A model generated the notes under the pieces. That model ran no database searches, was not told where the DNA came from, and saw only the letters and a list, made by a program, of their open reading frames with translations. DNA of 35,162 nucleotides from Dehalococcoidia bacterium (GTDB taxonomy: Bacteria; Chloroflexota; Dehalococcoidia; Lucifugimonadales; Lucifugimonadaceae): the NCBI GenBank assembly GCA_009693115.1, contig SHXW01000024.1, forward strand, positions 1 to 35,162, in the 5' to 3' direction. Made by a program: the position numbers and the translations under genes. Shown one piece after another: positions 26,158 to 34,858 of this stretch. Position 1 is the stretch's first letter; each line of letters opens with the position of its first letter.

Positions 26158-26205
26158 CTGGGTCTTGTCAGGTTCATATACCGGCGCAGCCGCGGGGACA
26201 GGCGG

Positions 26206-29200
26206 TTGCTGTTTGGCGCGTTCGCCGGAATCCTGATCGCCGCGGTCGTGGTCGCAGCGTCGCCGATCTATCTGCGTTCGCTCGAAAAGGTGGGAGTGGC
26301 TGACTCCCTTGATGGAATGGGGCTTTACAACCCCAACATCCAGGTCACAACACACTGGATACCCCTTGACCGCACAGATTTTGAGGCCGCCGACAGCGCA
26401 GTGTCTCGCCTGCGGCTGCAGTACATTCCGGATCTTGTGCGGTCAAAAGAGACGCTGATCAAGTCCACCAGCTTCTTCTGGGCGGAGGCGGGCGGGCGGA
26501 TGCAGACCGATCCGCTGGCTTCGGAACTCTGGTTTCTGAGCATGTCGTCAAACGAGGCGCATGTCCGCTACGTGGAGGGTCAACCTCCCTCTTCGCGCAT
26601 AGAGCAGGCCACCGACGGGGCCATCGTCATCGAGGCGTCCCTTCCGGCAGTTCGCGCGCGTCAGGTGAACCTGCAGGTTGGCGACATGCTGGATGCCCTC
26701 CCCGGAGCAAGCCGTCACGGCCTGGTCAGGGTCCGCATCTCGGGCGTGTTCGAGGTCAATGACTTCAACGAGGAGTACTGGCTCGGCCTCGGCGAGGTCC
26801 TGCTGCTGCCATCTCCCTTCAGAGAAGGGCAGGAAATGCCTGTCCTGCTGATAGTCCAGGAGGCTCCGGCTCTGGACGGGGTGGGATCCGTCACGGCGGG
26901 CCTGCCCGGTGCGTACTGGTGGTGGACCTACGTGCGCCGGGACGTGCTGAAGGAGATGCCGGTCAGCGACATCATCTCGACCGTGGACACCTTCGAAGAA
27001 CGGCTGGAAAAGACGATCACCCAGCCCAACCTGATCAGCGGCCTGGAGCCGACGTTCCGTGAGCTTCAGCGCAAGCTTCTATTCGCCCGCATCCCCATGT
27101 TCCTGCTGGCCGCGCTCGCCGTATCCGCGGTGGCCTACTACCTGTTTCTGGTCGCCGGGTTGCTGGCGCGCAAAAGAGAGCCGGACACGGTGATGCTCCG
27201 CAGCCGCGGGCTGAGCGTGCTGCAGGTCGTGCGGCTTTACGCCGTCGAGTCTGTCGTGTTGATAGGCGTCCCCGTGTTGGTCGCCCCTGTCATAGCCGTC
27301 GCTCTGGTATCGCAACTCGGTCGCCTGCCTGTGTACGCGCCTGTAACGGCGGGGGGGGCATTGCCCGTCGAACTGACATGGAAGGCGTGGGGGTGGGCGG
27401 TCGCGGCGGGCCTCACCTCCTTCATAGTGATGCTTGTGCCGGTGCTATCGTCCAGCAGGCGGGGCGTGATCCAGCAGAAGATGGACCTGGCCCGGCCGGA
27501 CAGGCCCCCAGTCTTCCAGCGCTATTACATAGACGCGCTGCTGTTGGGCCTGGGCGGGCTGCTGTGGTGGGAGCTCCGGTCAAAGGGCACCGTGGCAGGC
27601 ACGGGGTCTGAGGGCCAGGACACATTCGACCCCACGCTGTTGTTCGCGCCGGCATTTTTTCTGGTGGCGGTCGCCATCGTCTTCCTCAGGCTCTTCCCGC
27701 TTGCCGCGAGGTTGTCGTCATGGGTGGCCGCGAGAGTGGGCTCGGCATGGGTGGCTGTGGGATTCTGGAGACTTGGGAGGAGCCCCTACTGGTACGCATG
27801 GCCGGTCCTGCTCCTTGTGCTGGCGACAGGGCTGGCGGTCATAGCAGGCACACTCGCATCCACGCTGGAACGCAGTGATAGCGAGCAGTCTGAGTACCAG
27901 GTCGGCGGCGATATCCGCATCACCCCCGGGGTAAGGACCGTAATTGAGACCGGCCCGATGGAAGCGCTCAAGCAGGTCCCAGGTGTGGAGATCGTCGCAG
28001 CCGCGCTGAGACAGCGCGGGGTGTACGGGACCACCTCCGCCGGCCCGGGCTTCACAATGCTGGCCGTGGATATCGAGAAGTACCCGAACATCGGCTATTT
28101 CCGTAATGACTTCGCGGAAACCCCGATTGAGGGATTGCTTTCGAGGCTCGAATTACACCTGAAGACGGATCCGGCGAACCTGCCGCAGGGGACGACGGAG
28201 ATAGGCGCATGGGTGCGGACAGAGCCTGCCGTTCATGACCAGTTCCTCTGGATGGTGCTGCGCGATGCGACCGGGCGCACAAGCACCGTGACGCTCGGCC
28301 CGACCGCAGACAGGTGGCAGTACCAGGCCAGCAGTGTCCCGCCAGAGCTGATTGAGCCGGTGGAGATCGTATCCATTCAGACGTTCGAACAGGCCGGACC
28401 AGACGGAGGCCACCCGACCGTCCTTTTCATTGATGACGTACAGGCCGTGAGGGGCGCTGCGACAGAGGGCCCGCGCGTGCAGATAGTGCTTGACTTCGAG
28501 GAGCCCGGCAATTGGGCCGGGCTGCCCACCTCGGACGGGATGGACACAACGTACGGGCTGGCCGGGGAGGCGGGGCAGGGAGTGGCGGTGACCGGGTCTG
28601 CGCCGGGCCGCACCGTGGGGCGTATAGCGATGGGCCGCGGCACGGACGGCGGCATCCGCGGCATATATCGCGCGGCCACCGCCGCACCCATCCCGGTCCT
28701 CGCCAACCCCCGGTTCATGCAGGCGACGAATGCGCGCATGGGGGAGCCATTCGTCATGGCCATGGGAGGAGGTTTCATCCCCGCGGTGATCGTGGGCACG
28801 GTCTCGTACTTCCCAACGCTTGACCCCTCCAGCGAACCTTTCCTGATAGCGGATGTGAAGACCGTGCTCGAGTTCCTGGAATTGCGCGGCCTCGCCAGCC
28901 ACCACCCCAATGAACTCTTCGCGAGCGTTGCCGGAGGAAGCCTGGACGCAGCAGGCCGCGCCGCCGTGCGCCGCATGTTCCCTGGCGGGGAAGTCACGGA
29001 CAGGGGCGCCCTGGTGTTTGACTCGCTTGTGGATCCGCTCTCCGTGGCGGGCTGGAGGGGCATGGGTGTGGTGACCGTGGGAATCGGCGCCCTGGCAGCG
29101 GTGCTCGGCTACCTGACGTACCTGTCAGCCCACCACAAGCGGACGCAGGTAGATGCTGCGTACATGCGCTCGCTCGGCCTGTCGACCGGTTCTTATCTGC

Positions 29201-29472
29201 GGCTCGTGCTGGTTGAACACTCCCTGATAGGGGTCATGGGCATCGGGCTTGGGATCGTTTCGGGACTTGTCGTGAGTGGCTTTGCCGTGAGCTCGATCGC
29301 CCATACGGCTACCGGGCGCGAGCTGGTCCCACCGTTCATCTTGCAAACCAACTGGGTGCCGGTATCACTGCTGCTCGGAGCGGTCGTGACAACCGTCGCT
29401 GTCTCCCTGGTGGCCATACTCCGGTCTTATGAGCGCGCCCCTATCCACGAGCTTGTGAGGTCCCCGGAATGA
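26206..29472 (+). CDS. FtsX/MacB-type ABC transporter permease 1
   Basis: This is an inner-membrane permease of at least 1088 residues with two FtsX-like halves. A first membrane segment (about 4-22) leads to a large external domain, then membrane segments near 295-320, 343-370, 393-415, 438-456, 479-500 and 530-553, a second external domain (about 555-945), and three final segments (950-975, 1000-1030, 1052-1075). The second external domain contains FIDDVQAVRG and LDFEEPGNW, resembling a beta-sandwich ligand-binding module. TTG 26,206 is the first ordinary start codon, but the upstream in-frame codons from CTG 26,158 encode an Arg-rich pre-membrane stretch (VRFIYRRSRGDRR) that looks genuine. 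The C-terminal ATGA overlaps a 16-codon frame. With two permeases and two ATPases, it likely exports or remodels an envelope substrate. Confidence 0.85.
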   Translation: MLFGAFAGILIAAVVVAASPIYLRSLEKVGVADSLDGMGLYNPNIQVTTHWIPLDRTDFEAADSAVSRLRLQYIPDLVRSKETLIKSTSFFWAEAGGRMQTDPLASELWFLSMSSNEAHVRYVEGQPPSSRIEQATDGAIVIEASLPAVRARQVNLQVGDMLDALPGASRHGLVRVRISGVFEVNDFNEEYWLGLGEVLLLPSPFREGQEMPVLLIVQEAPALDGVGSVTAGLPGAYWWWTYVRRDVLKEMPVSDIISTVDTFEERLEKTITQPNLISGLEPTFRELQRKLLFARIPMFLLAALAVSAVAYYLFLVAGLLARKREPDTVMLRSRGLSVLQVVRLYAVESVVLIGVPVLVAPVIAVALVSQLGRLPVYAPVTAGGALPVELTWKAWGWAVAAGLTSFIVMLVPVLSSSRRGVIQQKMDLARPDRPPVFQRYYIDALLLGLGGLLWWELRSKGTVAGTGSEGQDTFDPTLLFAPAFFLVAVAIVFLRLFPLAARLSSWVAARVGSAWVAVGFWRLGRSPYWYAWPVLLLVLATGLAVIAGTLASTLERSDSEQSEYQVGGDIRITPGVRTVIETGPMEALKQVPGVEIVAAALRQRGVYGTTSAGPGFTMLAVDIEKYPNIGYFRNDFAETPIEGLLSRLELHLKTDPANLPQGTTEIGAWVRTEPAVHDQFLWMVLRDATGRTSTVTLGPTADRWQYQASSVPPELIEPVEIVSIQTFEQAGPDGGHPTVLFIDDVQAVRGAATEGPRVQIVLDFEEPGNWAGLPTSDGMDTTYGLAGEAGQGVAVTGSAPGRTVGRIAMGRGTDGGIRGIYRAATAAPIPVLANPRFMQATNARMGEPFVMAMGGGFIPAVIVGTVSYFPTLDPSSEPFLIADVKTVLEFLELRGLASHHPNELFASVAGGSLDAAGRAAVRRMFPGGEVTDRGALVFDSLVDPLSVAGWRGMGVVTVGIGALAAVLGYLTYLSAHHKRTQVDAAYMRSLGLSTGSYLRLVLVEHSLIGVMGIGLGIVSGLVVSGFAVSSIAHTATGRELVPPFILQTNWVPVSLLLGAVVTTVAVSLVAILRSYERAPIHELVRSPE

Positions 29473-29519
29473 AGTCACAGACGGCTCACACGAAGCCCGT
29501 CGGGCCGGGTGGACGATGA
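29469..29519 (+). CDS. 16-codon linker open frame bridging the two permease genes
   Basis: ATG 29,469 overlaps the stop of permease 1 (ATGA at 29,469-29,472). The frame encodes MKSQTAHTKPVGPGGR and stops at TGA 29,517-29,519, which overlaps the ATG of permease 2 (ATGA at 29,516-29,519). The tiny frame fits the 43-nt gap exactly at both ends. A peptide product is not implied; it may serve to carry terminating ribosomes to the next start. It could be coincidence. Confidence 0.35.
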   Translation: MKSQTAHTKPVGPGGR

Positions 29520-32500
29520 CATCCTCGCTGCCAATGATCCTGAAGCGGACAACCGCTCACTGGAAGCTGCTCTCTGCGGTCGTGGTCGGCGTTGTGCTCG
29601 CTGTGACCGTCATGTCCAGTTCGGTGGTCTTTTTCGAGTCCCTGCGTGACCTCGCGCTCAGGCGCACACTGGCCGTCCCCACGCCTACGCAGCTTGATGT
29701 CCTAGTAGAGGCCAGTGACACGCCCGCATCTCGCGCCAAGCACCGCGAGCTGGAACAGAAGATGGATGAGACCGTCGTCGGCAGGCTGAGCCCCTTCCTG
29801 AACGGCGTGTACCTGGGCGTCAAGTCCTGGACCTTTTTCGTTGACCTGCCGCCGCCCGTCGTCCCGGCCAGCCAGTGTTCTTGCCGCACGGCACGCGGCA
29901 CGATGACGAATCCGGACGGCAGCCCGCTCATGGTGGAGTGCGACTGCCGCCGCGCCGCGTTTTACAGCATCCCGGATGTTGAAAAGCGCGTGACCATCCT
30001 TGAGGGCCGGCTACCCGTGGCCACCACAGGCCTGCCGCCCCAGGGCGAGACCCTGAAGATCGAAGTGGCCTTCGATAAGGCCTCTGCGGATTCAAAGGGC
30101 CTGTCCGTGGGCAGTATTTACCCGGTGACGTCTTACTGGGAAGACAAGCACGCCCGCGCAGAAGCGGTCATTGTGGGCACCTACGAGCGTAGCGAACCGG
30201 ACCACCCGGTCTGGCGTATATACGACGACTCTTTCGGTACGCGCGGCACTTCTCTCGACTTTGCGTTCTTTGTCGTGCCGGAAGACTCCATCCTCGGTGG
30301 TCTGGGGTCCTACTTCCCCGCGATGGGCGCCAACTGGGCGTGGCTCATAGACACCAACCCTGACGCCATCCACGCCGTGGACACGGCGCGGATACAGTCC
30401 ACCATCCGCGTCACCCAGAACGAGCTCAAGGCCGTGGTGGACGGCTTCATGATGGAGACGGAGCTGCCGGACACGCTGGCAGCTTTCGAAGAGAACCTGT
30501 TCTTTAACCGGCTGCCCATGTTCATAGTGCTCATATTAATCGTGCTGGTAGTGCTGTACTACGTGACGGCGCTGGCGATGCTGCTGGTGGACGCTCAGAA
30601 GGCAGAGGTTGCGCTGCTGAGGAGCAGGGGCGCTACATCGTTTCAGATCCTGGCCGTATTCATTTTCGAGGCCGCGCTTATATCGGGTCTCGGCGTGCTA
30701 CTCGGGCCGGTGCTATCTCTCGGAGCGGTGAGCCTGATCGGAGCCCTGCCGCCGTTCCATGAGTTGAACAACGGTTCCCTCCTGCCTGTCCAGTTCACTG
30801 CCGGAGTGGCGAAGCTGGCGCTGATAGGCGGCGGGCTGGCCCTCCTTGCCCTCCTCATCCCTGCCATAAGGGCTTCGAGAATGGGAATCCTGCGCGAAAA
30901 GCGGTCCCGCACGCGGCCCAACCGGCTGGCCCTTCTCCAGCGCTACTACCTGGACTTGGGCTTTCTAGGGCTGGCTGTCTTCATGTTCTGGCAGCTATCC
31001 AAGCAAGGGTCCTTCGTGGGGGTTCAGCTGTTCGGAGAGCGCACTGTTGACCGGCTGATCCTGGCAGCGCCGGCAGTGTTCATGGTCGCAGCAGGCGTCG
31101 TGCTGCTGCGCGTCTTTCCCCTTGTGATGGACCTGCTGGCCCGGCTCCTTTCGATGCGGCTCTTCAGCCACATCGCGCCGTCGTCAGTGGTGCTTGGACT
31201 CTGGCAGATGGCCCGCAACCCGGGCCACCACGCCCGGCTGTCGCTCCTGCTCATTTTGACGGCGGGGCTCGGAGTATTCGCTGCGAGCTTTGCCGGAACA
31301 CTGGAGCGCGGCTCGAAGGAGCGTGCACTCTACGATTCCGGCGCTGACATACGGGCCGTCTCGATCTCCACAGCGGTGGGCGGACAGAGCTACTCGCCAG
31401 CCTCGACCATACGCAGCGTCCCGGGCGTGGCGGCCTCAACTTCCATCTACAGGGAGCGGGCAGCCCTGACGGCGCGAGGCGAGTATGAGGCGTTCACCGT
31501 CATTGGCGTCTCCCCTGATGACTTCCCAGCCGTGGGCTTCTTCCGGGATGACTTCGCCGACCGGCCGCTGCCGGAGATGCTCAACCTGATCCGCTCGCCT
31601 GAACAGGGCGGCATACTCCTGCCGGAGAATACGCGCTGGCTCAGCATCATGGTCAAGCCCGTTGTGCGCCAGCAGAACACAGTGCTGGCGGCGCGCCTGA
31701 GCGACAGCAATGGCCGCTTCTACACACTCCATCTCGGCGACCTCAGGCCGGTCTCGGTGGACACCCAGCGCTTCAACTGTGCGTCGGGTGACCCTGAAGA
31801 TCCGCCCGAGTGGTGCCGTGTGGGCGCAAGCGTATTCCCGGGTCCGCAGCCTGGGTTCGGGTCCCTTGTGCCCAACCCACCCCTGCGCCTGCACTCCATA
31901 GGAGTCACAGTGGTGCGCGGCGGCAGCGACCTCCGCCCGGGGGCGATAGACATAGATGACATAACCGTCTTCACGGGGAGCGGAGCCGAATCGGTCATGA
32001 TCGAGGGCTTCGAGACGCCAGCCTCACTGGACCGTTGGAGGCGCGTGTTCAGCGGGACCAATTCTCTCGGGGATGCCTTCAACCTTGCACCGGGCGCCCT
32101 AGGCGTTGCGCGCTTCCGCTGGACCCAGGGCTATCTCAGGGAGTTCCGCGGCCTCGTAGCGGGCAGGGAGGACAGCCCGGTGCCGGTGCTGGCCAACTCC
32201 GCCTTCATGTCAAGATACTCTGTGCGTTTGGGGGAACCTGTCCCGGTGGCGGTGGCCTCCGTCCGCATGGACTTCACCGTGGTGGGGACGATGGACTACT
32301 TCCCGACCGTTGACCCCAACGAGGCACCTTTTGTGATCGCAGATGTCGCCGCGTTGCATGCCAGGCTCAACTCTGACCGGCTCTTCCAGGAGCGTCAGCC
32401 AACGGAGTACTGGATCAGCACAGACTCTGGCAGGGCGTACGGCATGTTGGACCCGGCCGTTGAAGTGCCAGACCGCGACCCGACCGGCCCCTCGCTCGAC

Positions 32501-33019
32501 CGCGCTCTCGGCGCGGTGCGCGTGCGTTACATCCAGGTGTCAGACCGCGCTGAGGCTTTGAATGACGCTGCGATAGACCCGCTCGTGGCAGCGGGGTGGA
32601 AGGCGCTGCTCGGCATCGCCTTCTCCACGGTACTGATCGTCAGCGCCATAGGCTTCGTGATTCATACGCGCGTGTCATTCCAGAACCGGCGAGCTGAGTT
32701 CGCCCTGCTCAGGACGATCGGTCTGTCGATGCGGCAGCTCATCACCCTGGTGGTGCTGGAGCAGGTGATCGTGATTGGGGTGGCAGTCGCGCTCGGGATA
32801 GTGATGGGCTCACAGCTGGGCATCACGATAATGCCGTACCTTGCGAACTCGGGCGAGGGTGTGCGCCTGGTGCCGCCCATGCTCGTGCAGATCAACTGGG
32901 CCGGCTTCGCCACCACATTCGGCATGTTGACGGCCGTGTTCACCGTAGTCCTGGCCGCGATACTCTTATCTGTTTACACCATGTCCATCCACCGTGTGAT
33001 GAGAATGGGCGAGGGGTAG
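29516..33019 (+). CDS. FtsX/MacB-type ABC transporter permease 2
   Basis: This 1167-residue paralogue of permease 1 shares its order of segments and whole stretches such as VLANSAFMSRYSVRLGEP and MDYFPTVDPNEAPFVIADV against VLANPRFMQATNARMGEP and VSYFPTLDPSSEPFLIADV. Membrane segments lie near 18-40, 333-358, 380-410, 430-452, 478-492, 513-535, 575-595, 1028-1050, 1078-1105 and 1128-1152. The first external domain holds two CxC motifs, C121/C123 and C142/C144, and the second a further pair, C755 and C767; permease 1 lacks these. IDIDDITVF followed by IEGFETPASLDRW suggests a beta-sandwich binding module. The two proteins probably form a heterodimeric channel, as FtsX-type transporters act as dimers. 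Confidence 0.87.
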   Translation: MTSSLPMILKRTTAHWKLLSAVVVGVVLAVTVMSSSVVFFESLRDLALRRTLAVPTPTQLDVLVEASDTPASRAKHRELEQKMDETVVGRLSPFLNGVYLGVKSWTFFVDLPPPVVPASQCSCRTARGTMTNPDGSPLMVECDCRRAAFYSIPDVEKRVTILEGRLPVATTGLPPQGETLKIEVAFDKASADSKGLSVGSIYPVTSYWEDKHARAEAVIVGTYERSEPDHPVWRIYDDSFGTRGTSLDFAFFVVPEDSILGGLGSYFPAMGANWAWLIDTNPDAIHAVDTARIQSTIRVTQNELKAVVDGFMMETELPDTLAAFEENLFFNRLPMFIVLILIVLVVLYYVTALAMLLVDAQKAEVALLRSRGATSFQILAVFIFEAALISGLGVLLGPVLSLGAVSLIGALPPFHELNNGSLLPVQFTAGVAKLALIGGGLALLALLIPAIRASRMGILREKRSRTRPNRLALLQRYYLDLGFLGLAVFMFWQLSKQGSFVGVQLFGERTVDRLILAAPAVFMVAAGVVLLRVFPLVMDLLARLLSMRLFSHIAPSSVVLGLWQMARNPGHHARLSLLLILTAGLGVFAASFAGTLERGSKERALYDSGADIRAVSISTAVGGQSYSPASTIRSVPGVAASTSIYRERAALTARGEYEAFTVIGVSPDDFPAVGFFRDDFADRPLPEMLNLIRSPEQGGILLPENTRWLSIMVKPVVRQQNTVLAARLSDSNGRFYTLHLGDLRPVSVDTQRFNCASGDPEDPPEWCRVGASVFPGPQPGFGSLVPNPPLRLHSIGVTVVRGGSDLRPGAIDIDDITVFTGSGAESVMIEGFETPASLDRWRRVFSGTNSLGDAFNLAPGALGVARFRWTQGYLREFRGLVAGREDSPVPVLANSAFMSRYSVRLGEPVPVAVASVRMDFTVVGTMDYFPTVDPNEAPFVIADVAALHARLNSDRLFQERQPTEYWISTDSGRAYGMLDPAVEVPDRDPTGPSLDRALGAVRVRYIQVSDRAEALNDAAIDPLVAAGWKALLGIAFSTVLIVSAIGFVIHTRVSFQNRRAEFALLRTIGLSMRQLITLVVLEQVIVIGVAVALGIVMGSQLGITIMPYLANSGEGVRLVPPMLVQINWAGFATTFGMLTAVFTVVLAAILLSVYTMSIHRVMRMGEG

Positions 33020-33021
33020 CC

Positions 33022-33129
33022 ATGAAGCTGTCTGGAAGTTACGGACTCATTTACCGGTTGGCGCCCTCACTCCCGCCTGCACCATCAGGGCAGCCCGGCG
33101 GGAGCCGGAGTTTCGGGGTGGCCGCATGA
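33022..33129 (+). CDS. 35-codon open frame between permease 2 and ATPase 1
   Basis: ATG 33,022 lies 2 nt after the permease 2 stop (TAG 33,017-33,019), with GAGGGG just ahead as ribosome site. The frame runs 35 codons (MKLSGSYGLIYRL then a Pro/Ser/Gly-rich remainder) and stops at TGA 33,127-33,129, overlapping the ATG of ATPase 1 as ATGA. It could be a real small protein, a translational relay, or the remnant N-terminus of a lost third permease: SYGLIYRL recalls LVRFIYRR just ahead of permease 1. No homology can be tested here. Confidence 0.4.
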   Translation: MKLSGSYGLIYRLAPSLPPAPSGQPGGSRSFGVAA

Positions 33130-34037
33130 CACTCCGTGACGGCATGGCGCGGGAGTTGCTGGAGGAGGCCCCGCCGTACATCGTGTGCAGCGGCCTCTTC
33201 AAGATCTACAAGGTGGCTGACCTTGAGGTCGTGGCGCTGCGCGGCCTTGAACTGAACGTCAGGCCCGGTGAGATCATAGCCATCGTCGGCGCGTCCGGGT
33301 CGGGCAAGTCCACTCTGCTCAACATTCTGGCCGGGTACGACACGCCCTCCGCGGGCACAGTGCGCGTGGGTGAATATGACCTGCTGAACATGACGAACCG
33401 CGAAGTGGTTGATTACCGGCGCCGGGAGGTGGGTTTCATCTGGCAGGAGACCTCCCGCAACCTGTTCCCGTACCTGACCGCCCTCGAGAATGTGGAACTC
33501 CCCATGGTCCTGACCGGCCTCCCTCCGAAGGCGCGCAGACAGCGGTCCGAGGAACTCCTTTCGCTCGTCGGGCTTTCACAGCGGATGCATCACACACAGG
33601 CGGAACTTTCGGGTGGGGAGCAGCAGCGGGTGTCCATCGCCGTCGCCCTGGCCAACAAGCCTCCGCTTCTCCTCGCAGACGAGCCGACCGGAGAACTGGA
33701 TGACGAGACGAGCGCGGCGGTGCTGGACCTGCTCAACCGCGTGAACCGGGACCTGGCCACGACGATCGTGGTGGTGACGCACGACCCGGCCATCGCCTCG
33801 AGCGTGGGCCGGGCGATCGCGATACGTGACGGCAAGACGAGCACGGAAACGTTGCGCCGGGTCTCCTTCGAGAAGCGCATCGGCGGGCAGGCGGAGGACG
33901 TGGAGGAGTTTCTGCTGGTGGACTCCAGTGGTTCCGTGCAGATACCCCGGAACATCCTGGACAAGCTGGCCATAGGCCGGCGTGTGCGCGTGGCGGAGAC
34001 GGACGGCAAGGTAACACTGGAGTCAGGCGGCGAATGA
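33126..34037 (+). CDS. ABC transporter ATP-binding protein 1 with AbrB/SpoVT-like C-terminal extension
   Basis: This 303-residue MacB/LolD-type ATPase has Walker A GASGSGKS (55-62), Q-loop Gln 107, signature LSGGE (161-165), Walker [11 protein letters not shown] (181-190) and switch His 219 (THD). Beyond about 245 it has an extension not needed for the ATPase fold; residues 262-298 (FLLVDSSGSVQIPRNILDKL, then GRRVRVAETDGKVTL) resemble a swapped-hairpin AbrB/SpoVT segment. A regulatory or dimerising role is inference. Its start overlaps the 35-codon frame and its stop overlaps ATPase 2 (both ATGA). Confidence 0.92.
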   Translation: MTLRDGMARELLEEAPPYIVCSGLFKIYKVADLEVVALRGLELNVRPGEIIAIVGASGSGKSTLLNILAGYDTPSAGTVRVGEYDLLNMTNREVVDYRRREVGFIWQETSRNLFPYLTALENVELPMVLTGLPPKARRQRSEELLSLVGLSQRMHHTQAELSGGEQQRVSIAVALANKPPLLLADEPTGELDDETSAAVLDLLNRVNRDLATTIVVVTHDPAIASSVGRAIAIRDGKTSTETLRRVSFEKRIGGQAEDVEEFLLVDSSGSVQIPRNILDKLAIGRRVRVAETDGKVTLESGGE

Positions 34038-34858
34038 TTCAGAACCCTTATGACCGCATCAAGCAGCGACTGGCACGCGACGGCGCCTCAGTGGAACGTC
34101 CCGCCGGGTCGCCCATCATTGAGGCAGCGCACATCAGCCGTGAATACCGCATTGGCAGTGATGTGGTGCACGCCGTCCAGAACGTGGACCTGAAGGTTGG
34201 GCGTGGCCGGTTCATCACACTTGTGGGACGTTCAGGCTCTGGCAAGACCACGCTGATGAACCTTCTCGCAGGGCTTGACCACCCGACGTCAGGCCAGGTG
34301 TTTTTCGAAGGCCGGGACATGGCGGCGTTCTCCGAAAAGGAGTTCATCGAACTGCGTCGCAGACGCATCGGAGTCGTGTTCCAGGGCTTTGCGCTGCTGC
34401 CTCTACTCTCCGCCTATGAAAACGTAGAGCTGCCCCTGCGCATCTCCGGCGTGAGCGCACGGGAGCGCAGCGACCGCACACGCGAAGTGCTTGAGATGGT
34501 GGGCCTGGCCCGTCGCGCCAAGCACCGCCCTTTTGAACTTTCAGGCGGCGAACAGCAGCGCGTGTCCATCGCCCGCGCCGTGGCAATGCGCCCGGACGTC
34601 ATCCTCGCTGATGAACCCACGGGCGAGCTTGACTCGGTGAACGCGGGCGCCATCTTCGGACTGTTCCGCCAGATGGTGGCTACGCGCGATATGACGATCG
34701 TCGCCACGACTCACGACCGCACACTGCTTGACATGGCGGATGAGATCTACGAAATCCACGATGGGTCGCTGTCCATGCGCCAGAGCGGCCGCTCAGCTCA
34801 GCCATCGGCGCCCACGGACACCACCCGCTTCCGCCGCCCCGCCCCTGCGACTCAATAA
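34034..34858 (+). CDS. ABC transporter ATP-binding protein 2
   Basis: This 274-residue MacB/LolD-type ATPase has Walker A GRSGSGKT (65-72), Q117 ([13 protein letters not shown]), signature LSGGE (169-173), Walker [12 protein letters not shown] (190-200) and switch His 227 (TTHD). It lacks the AbrB-like tail of ATPase 1; its last ~25 residues are Ser/Pro/Thr-rich. The ATG shares four bases with the stop of ATPase 1 (34,034-34,037), so translation is coupled, which fits a heterodimeric ATPase serving the two different permeases. It is the last gene of the operon. Confidence 0.93.

Follow-up and report, generated by a model that had tools for sequence, protein, structure and literature searches.

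Organization of the transporter operon

The window analysed here is a 35,162-nucleotide stretch (contig SHXW01000024.1, positions 1 to 35,162, forward strand) of a Dehalococcoidia bacterium whose genome (GCA_009693115.1) comprises 2.0 Mb in 40 contigs. The nearest named relatives are SAR202-cluster Chloroflexota, including Candidatus Lucifugimonas marina CP046147 (genus g12). Two genes for FtsX-like permeases are followed by two genes for ABC ATPases, and the genes that flank the frame described below probably encode subunits of one transporter. Our search of the literature on SAR202 FtsX operons found nothing useful. The features of the locus are:

26158..29472, + strand: permease 1, FtsX-like (PF02687), about 1100 aa, start proposed at CTG 26158
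29469..29472, + strand: ATGA in which the TGA stop of permease 1 and the ATG of mini-frame 1 overlap, read from the sequence
29469..29519, + strand: mini-frame 1, 16 codons (MKSQTAHTKPVGPGGR, then stop), occupying a 43-nt gap, found in this genome only
29474..29514, + strand: RNA hairpin predicted at -18 kcal/mol, in which part of the permease 2 ribosome-binding site is paired
29507..29512, + strand: Shine-Dalgarno-like GGGTGG within mini-frame 1, 5' of the permease 2 ATG
29516..29519, + strand: ATGA in which the TGA of mini-frame 1 and the ATG of permease 2 overlap, read from the sequence
29516..33019, + strand: permease 2, FtsX-like (PF02687), 1167 aa
33022..33129, + strand: mini-frame 2, 35 codons (MKLSGSYGLIYRLAPSLPPAPSGQPGGSRSFGVAA, then stop), ending in an ATGA with ATPase 1
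33115..33121, + strand: Shine-Dalgarno-like GGGGTGG within mini-frame 2, 5' of the ATPase 1 ATG
33126..34037, + strand: ABC ATPase 1 (PF00005)
34034..34858, + strand: ABC ATPase 2 (PF00005), with ATGA 34034-34037 in common with ATPase 1

From permease 1 to ATPase 2 all steps are overlaps except one: mini-frame 2 begins 2 nt past the stop of permease 2 (33017-33019). The ATG of ATPase 1 is at 33126.

In the permease 1 reading frame of the window, TTG 26206 is the earliest ATG, GTG or TTG, and conserved N-terminal residues lie further upstream. At the place aligned to 26158 (26158-26160 in the window), 23 SAR202 relatives with a clear permease 1 have CTG and 2 more have GTG; in 15 of the 23, the stretch from the in-frame stop upstream to this CTG offers no ATG, GTG or TTG. 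The alignment points to a conserved CTG start of permease 1. A conserved non-canonical start codon is unusual in a bacterial operon. The start context is CTGA in the relatives, so that a frame ending in TGA overlaps the permease 1 start there, and CTGG in the window.

Mini-frame 1 at the permease 1/permease 2 junction

Permease 1 stops at TGA 29470-29472, and the A just before it completes the first ATGA. Mini-frame 1 stops at TGA 29517-29519, and the ATG of permease 2 occupies 29516-29518. A preliminary description of the locus had reported a 16-codon frame that fills the 43-nt gap exactly, with ATGA overlaps at both ends, and the sequence confirms this. The start at 29516 is backed by the relatives, whose permease 2 starts lie 9-10 residues before a conserved KRT/RRT motif (9 residues before KRT in the window); ATG 29534 is an alternative in-frame start. 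Both ends of mini-frame 1 have the geometry of termination-reinitiation (a stop/start overlap of -4 or -1 nt, or a distance within ~20 nt), and in both mini-frames of the window the downstream ribosome-binding site is embedded in the frame, as in a bridging leader.

The GGGTGG site matches the 16S tail (GGATCACCTCCTTT / GGATCACCTCC) in part only. The predicted hairpin is not significant against shuffled sequences, either for the gap (z -1.6) or for 106 nt of the junction (z +0.3). Neither a promoter nor a terminator was found within the permease 1/permease 2 gap. The codon use of mini-frame 1 is not gene-like, being worse than that of 95% of same-length gene segments. None of 53 relatives has a frame homologous to its peptide, which also has no second copy in the genome.

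The same junction in relatives

We compared 53 distinct junctions with both permeases from the family and the order; the window's genus is represented by one genome. The gaps between permease 1 and permease 2 are -4 (19 cases), -1 (2), +1 (10), +3 (11), +4 (1), +7 (2), +8 (2), +10 (4), +12 (1) and +18 nt (1). All 53 relatives therefore keep the two genes within coupling distance, and the 43-nt gap of the window is an outlier. None of the 53 has a mini-frame linking the two permeases, under either the strict or the loose rule given below. In the alignment, the end of the window's permease 1 coincides with that in g2, g10 and g11. In a tree of permease 2 the window adjoins a g2 species with a gap of +7, with long branches on both.

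Relatives with an intact operon but a gap of another phase, or with stops inside the frame, had been named in the preliminary description as a sign that the fit is accidental. Relatives with other gaps and phases are what the comparison yields, but they do not discriminate between the readings, because a bridge would be superfluous for genes spaced by -4 to +18 nt.

A bridging frame at the permease 2/ATPase 1 junction

The sister genus examined was the Candidatus Lucifugimonas genus (g12), with 18 species. Under a loose rule, a bridging frame has its start at or next to the stop of permease 2 and its end at or next to the ATPase start; under a strict rule, 4-nt or 1-nt overlaps are required at both frame ends. 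The permease 2/ATPase 1 gap is bridged in 17 of the 18 species by the loose rule and in 14 by strict overlaps. Gap lengths of 31, 40, 46, 49 and 85 nt occur, all 1 mod 3; in Ca. Lucifugimonas marina JH1073 the gap measures 46 nt and holds a frame of 17 codons. Two sister species of the genus have a gap of 32 nt and keep the bridge, with TAA directly before the ATG. Over 269 codons the bridging frame has three stop hits (one internal and two terminal TAA), compared with 14 in the neighbouring frame and 34 in the third, the last count being inflated by the fixed ribosome-binding site. After removal of 15 nt with this site, 12 of 12 similarity clusters are stop-free (P about 0.003-0.004 by shuffling, for a signal found post hoc among a handful of junctions and genera).

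The bridge peptides of g12 vary widely (LINNSSNRGDAK, MISFLMNRGGE and LIDMASTNQFQVKGESK among them), so it is the frame and not the peptide that looks constrained. At this junction 17 of the 18 species thus show a frame kept while peptide and length change. Ribosome-binding sites of the AGGGGTGA type lie inside the bridging frames of relatives. Bridges of four or five codons (MIAQ, MICP, MTFL and MIALF) are present in four g9 species, and three of five g11 species are bridged at this junction.

As controls, the same rule was applied to a homoserine dehydrogenase/PLP-enzyme junction in the same g12 species, where it scored 1 of 19, and to a second control junction, with 0 of 7. A third control, a TldD/TldE-type pair, gave 11 of 19 by the loose rule and 5 of 19 by strict overlaps, which makes the loose rule weak on its own. 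The case for the permease 2/ATPase 1 bridge is made by phase, stops and overlaps together. The TldD/TldE-type gap of the Lucifugimonas genus (loci L311-L329) measures 45-66 nt; its bridging frames have their end fixed on a TTGA start and begin at varying positions (-4, 0, +2, +3, +5, +7 and +8). These frames are either chance occurrences or a second bridged pair.

Frequency of fitting frames

Applied to 760 kb (38%) of this genome, a simple gene caller yielded 160 same-strand gaps of 8-150 nt. The null model re-paired stop contexts, gap interiors and start contexts at random; the resulting counts are approximate because the start codons are the gene caller's choice. Strict double-ATGA fits number three in the ~160 gaps of this genome, mini-frame 1 included, against 0.75 expected (P 0.03 when this ascertained case is counted), and three against 1.88 expected in 305 gaps of eight relatives. 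Fits by any overlap number 9 against 4.6 expected in this genome and 11 against 9.5 in the relatives. Of 19 gaps in this genome that measure 25-65 nt, 6 would fit once both ends are ATGA. A double-ATGA fit is thus uncommon, at about 1% of gaps, yet unremarkable when a whole window is scanned, and the exact fit at 29469-29519 is only weakly above chance. A genome-wide excess of bridging frames as a general rule was considered and set aside, the counts against expectation being unconvincing both in this genome and in the relatives.

The two other double-ATGA mini-frames of this genome have 20 and 21 codons and occupy gaps of 55 and 58 nt. They lie in stretches L068 (4253-6333) and L146 (12011-13857, minus strand), flanked in one case by a lyase-like and a citrate-synthase-like gene, in the other by an oxidoreductase-like and an epimerase-like gene, names that come from the look of the sequence only.

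Discussion

In three E. coli gene pairs, gaps of about 38 nt lowered reinitiation by 80-100%, and where stop and start do not overlap, a distance near 40 nt all but eliminates it (PMC10666635). A gap of 43 nt would therefore be expected to uncouple permease 1 from permease 2. In the same work the last 15 nt of the upstream gene were enough for coupling, so a 16-codon bridge would be long enough to restore it. We infer that the coupling which the 43-nt gap would break could be restored by the 16-codon frame with its two overlaps.

We favour, with a probability of roughly 0.52, a model in which mini-frame 1 serves as a bridge for the passage of ribosomes in a translationally coupled transporter operon. 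Judged from its sequence, it is probably a natural translational-coupling bridge of a known kind. A fraction of the ribosomes that finish permease 1 would restart on the overlapping ATG at 29469, read the 16 codons of mini-frame 1, terminate at 29517-29519 and initiate permease 2 on the common ATG. We speculate that the passing ribosomes open local RNA structure over the GGGTGG site; this is a suggestion only, because the site matches 16S only in part and the hairpin does not exceed chance expectation. The peptide would be irrelevant in this model, and what counts would be an open frame with its two ends. The junction after permease 2 appears to use the same principle, with the frame there conserved in the sister genus.

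Several known systems are close to this model. Both ends of mini-frame 1 carry the -4 nt overlap that is commonest in ATGA termination-reinitiation coupling (PMC6728339, PMC10666635); known cases join two full genes directly, whereas here a 16-codon frame, known from sequence, stands between them. The two-codon minigene of axe-txe (PMC8708949) is likewise a mini-ORF 5' of an operon gene and raises that gene's translation; in contrast to mini-frame 1, it is served by a Shine-Dalgarno site of its own and does not overlap the start, from which its end is 15 nt away.

Synthetic bicistronic leaders carry a ribosome-binding site of their own, unlike mini-frame 1, whose ribosomes would come from the preceding large gene. 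In other respects, ribosome-delivering short ORFs and synthetic bicistronic leader cistrons (PMC12548453, PMC13255528, PMC6302717) have the same layout: a short leader frame, the downstream ribosome-binding site inside it, and a stop located on or adjoining the next start.

The chief competitor is a chance fit, in which the 43 nt are a normal intercistronic spacer, initiation of permease 2 relies on its GGGTGG site without help from upstream and the frame has no role. We consider this nearly as likely as the bridge, to which we give slightly better than even odds. The base rate of double-ATGA fits, near 1% of gaps and including unrelated gene pairs of the same genome, speaks for chance, as do the counts against expectation in this genome (3 against 0.75 in 160 gaps) and in relatives (3 against 1.88), the 6 of 19 gaps of 25-65 nt that would fit given ATGA ends, the poor codon use of a frame found in one genome only, and the plausible ribosome-binding site that permease 2 has of its own. 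What chance leaves unexplained is that all relatives hold this junction within coupling distance and that the next junction of the operon shows a selection-like keeping of the bridging frame in the sister genus. The idea that mini-frame 1 is a stepping stone between the permeases, put forward in the preliminary description, therefore stands in part: it is strengthened by the 53 of 53 relatives within coupling distance and by a bridge at the next junction that the sister genus keeps as a frame, and weakened by the absence of mini-frame 1 from all 53 relatives and by a fit within reach of chance. The accompanying proposal that the two permeases are made in fixed ratio found no support.

Two other origins are far less probable. 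One is that the ancestor had an ATGA overlap here, which was duplicated when a short mobile element, akin to mycobacterial interspersed repetitive units, landed in it. The insert is indeed flanked by ATGA on both sides, a direct -4 overlap is found at the junction in 19 of the 53 relatives, and the architecture, a short frame at -4 nt spacing to the next gene, fits the description of these units in PMC12548453 (which cites Supply 1997). Those units are repeated mobile elements, whereas the 66-bp stretch here is single-copy in the genome (best other match E 0.12), which makes mini-frame 1 an improbable member of such a family. Moreover, the groups whose permease 1 ends as in the window (g2, g10 and g11) have gaps of +3 to +10 nt and not -4. 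We regard as similarly improbable that mini-frame 1 is the gene for a small protein with a function of its own, or what decay has left of a copied permease 2 start region. Its TGAAG...GCTCAC..GAAGC resembles, in the same codon register, the DNA for the permease 2 motif KRTTAHWK, but a score this high is reached by 4-11% of unrelated 47-mers from the window, and we rejected a duplication of the start region as the origin of the frame since the resemblance is not beyond chance. A small-protein role is unlikely for a peptide that occurs in none of the 53 relatives and has codon use that is not gene-like.

Returning to the bridge, a wider reading is tentative and, in our judgement, considerably less secure than that for mini-frame 1: SAR202-type Chloroflexota may join the genes for their giant FtsX-type transporter subunits end to end by peptide-independent bridging mini-frames wherever a gap is too long for direct coupling. 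Reinitiating ribosomes would then be relayed from the CTG-started permease 1 to the ATPases, and selection would act on frame and ends only. The set of 18 species at the permease 2/ATPase 1 junction makes the bridge idea directly testable. On the usual view, coupling requires genes that overlap or lie very close together. A natural frame maintained solely as a bridge would, if true, show a way for coupling to persist as gaps lengthen; it would be invisible to annotation and would represent a natural counterpart of the synthetic bicistronic leader.
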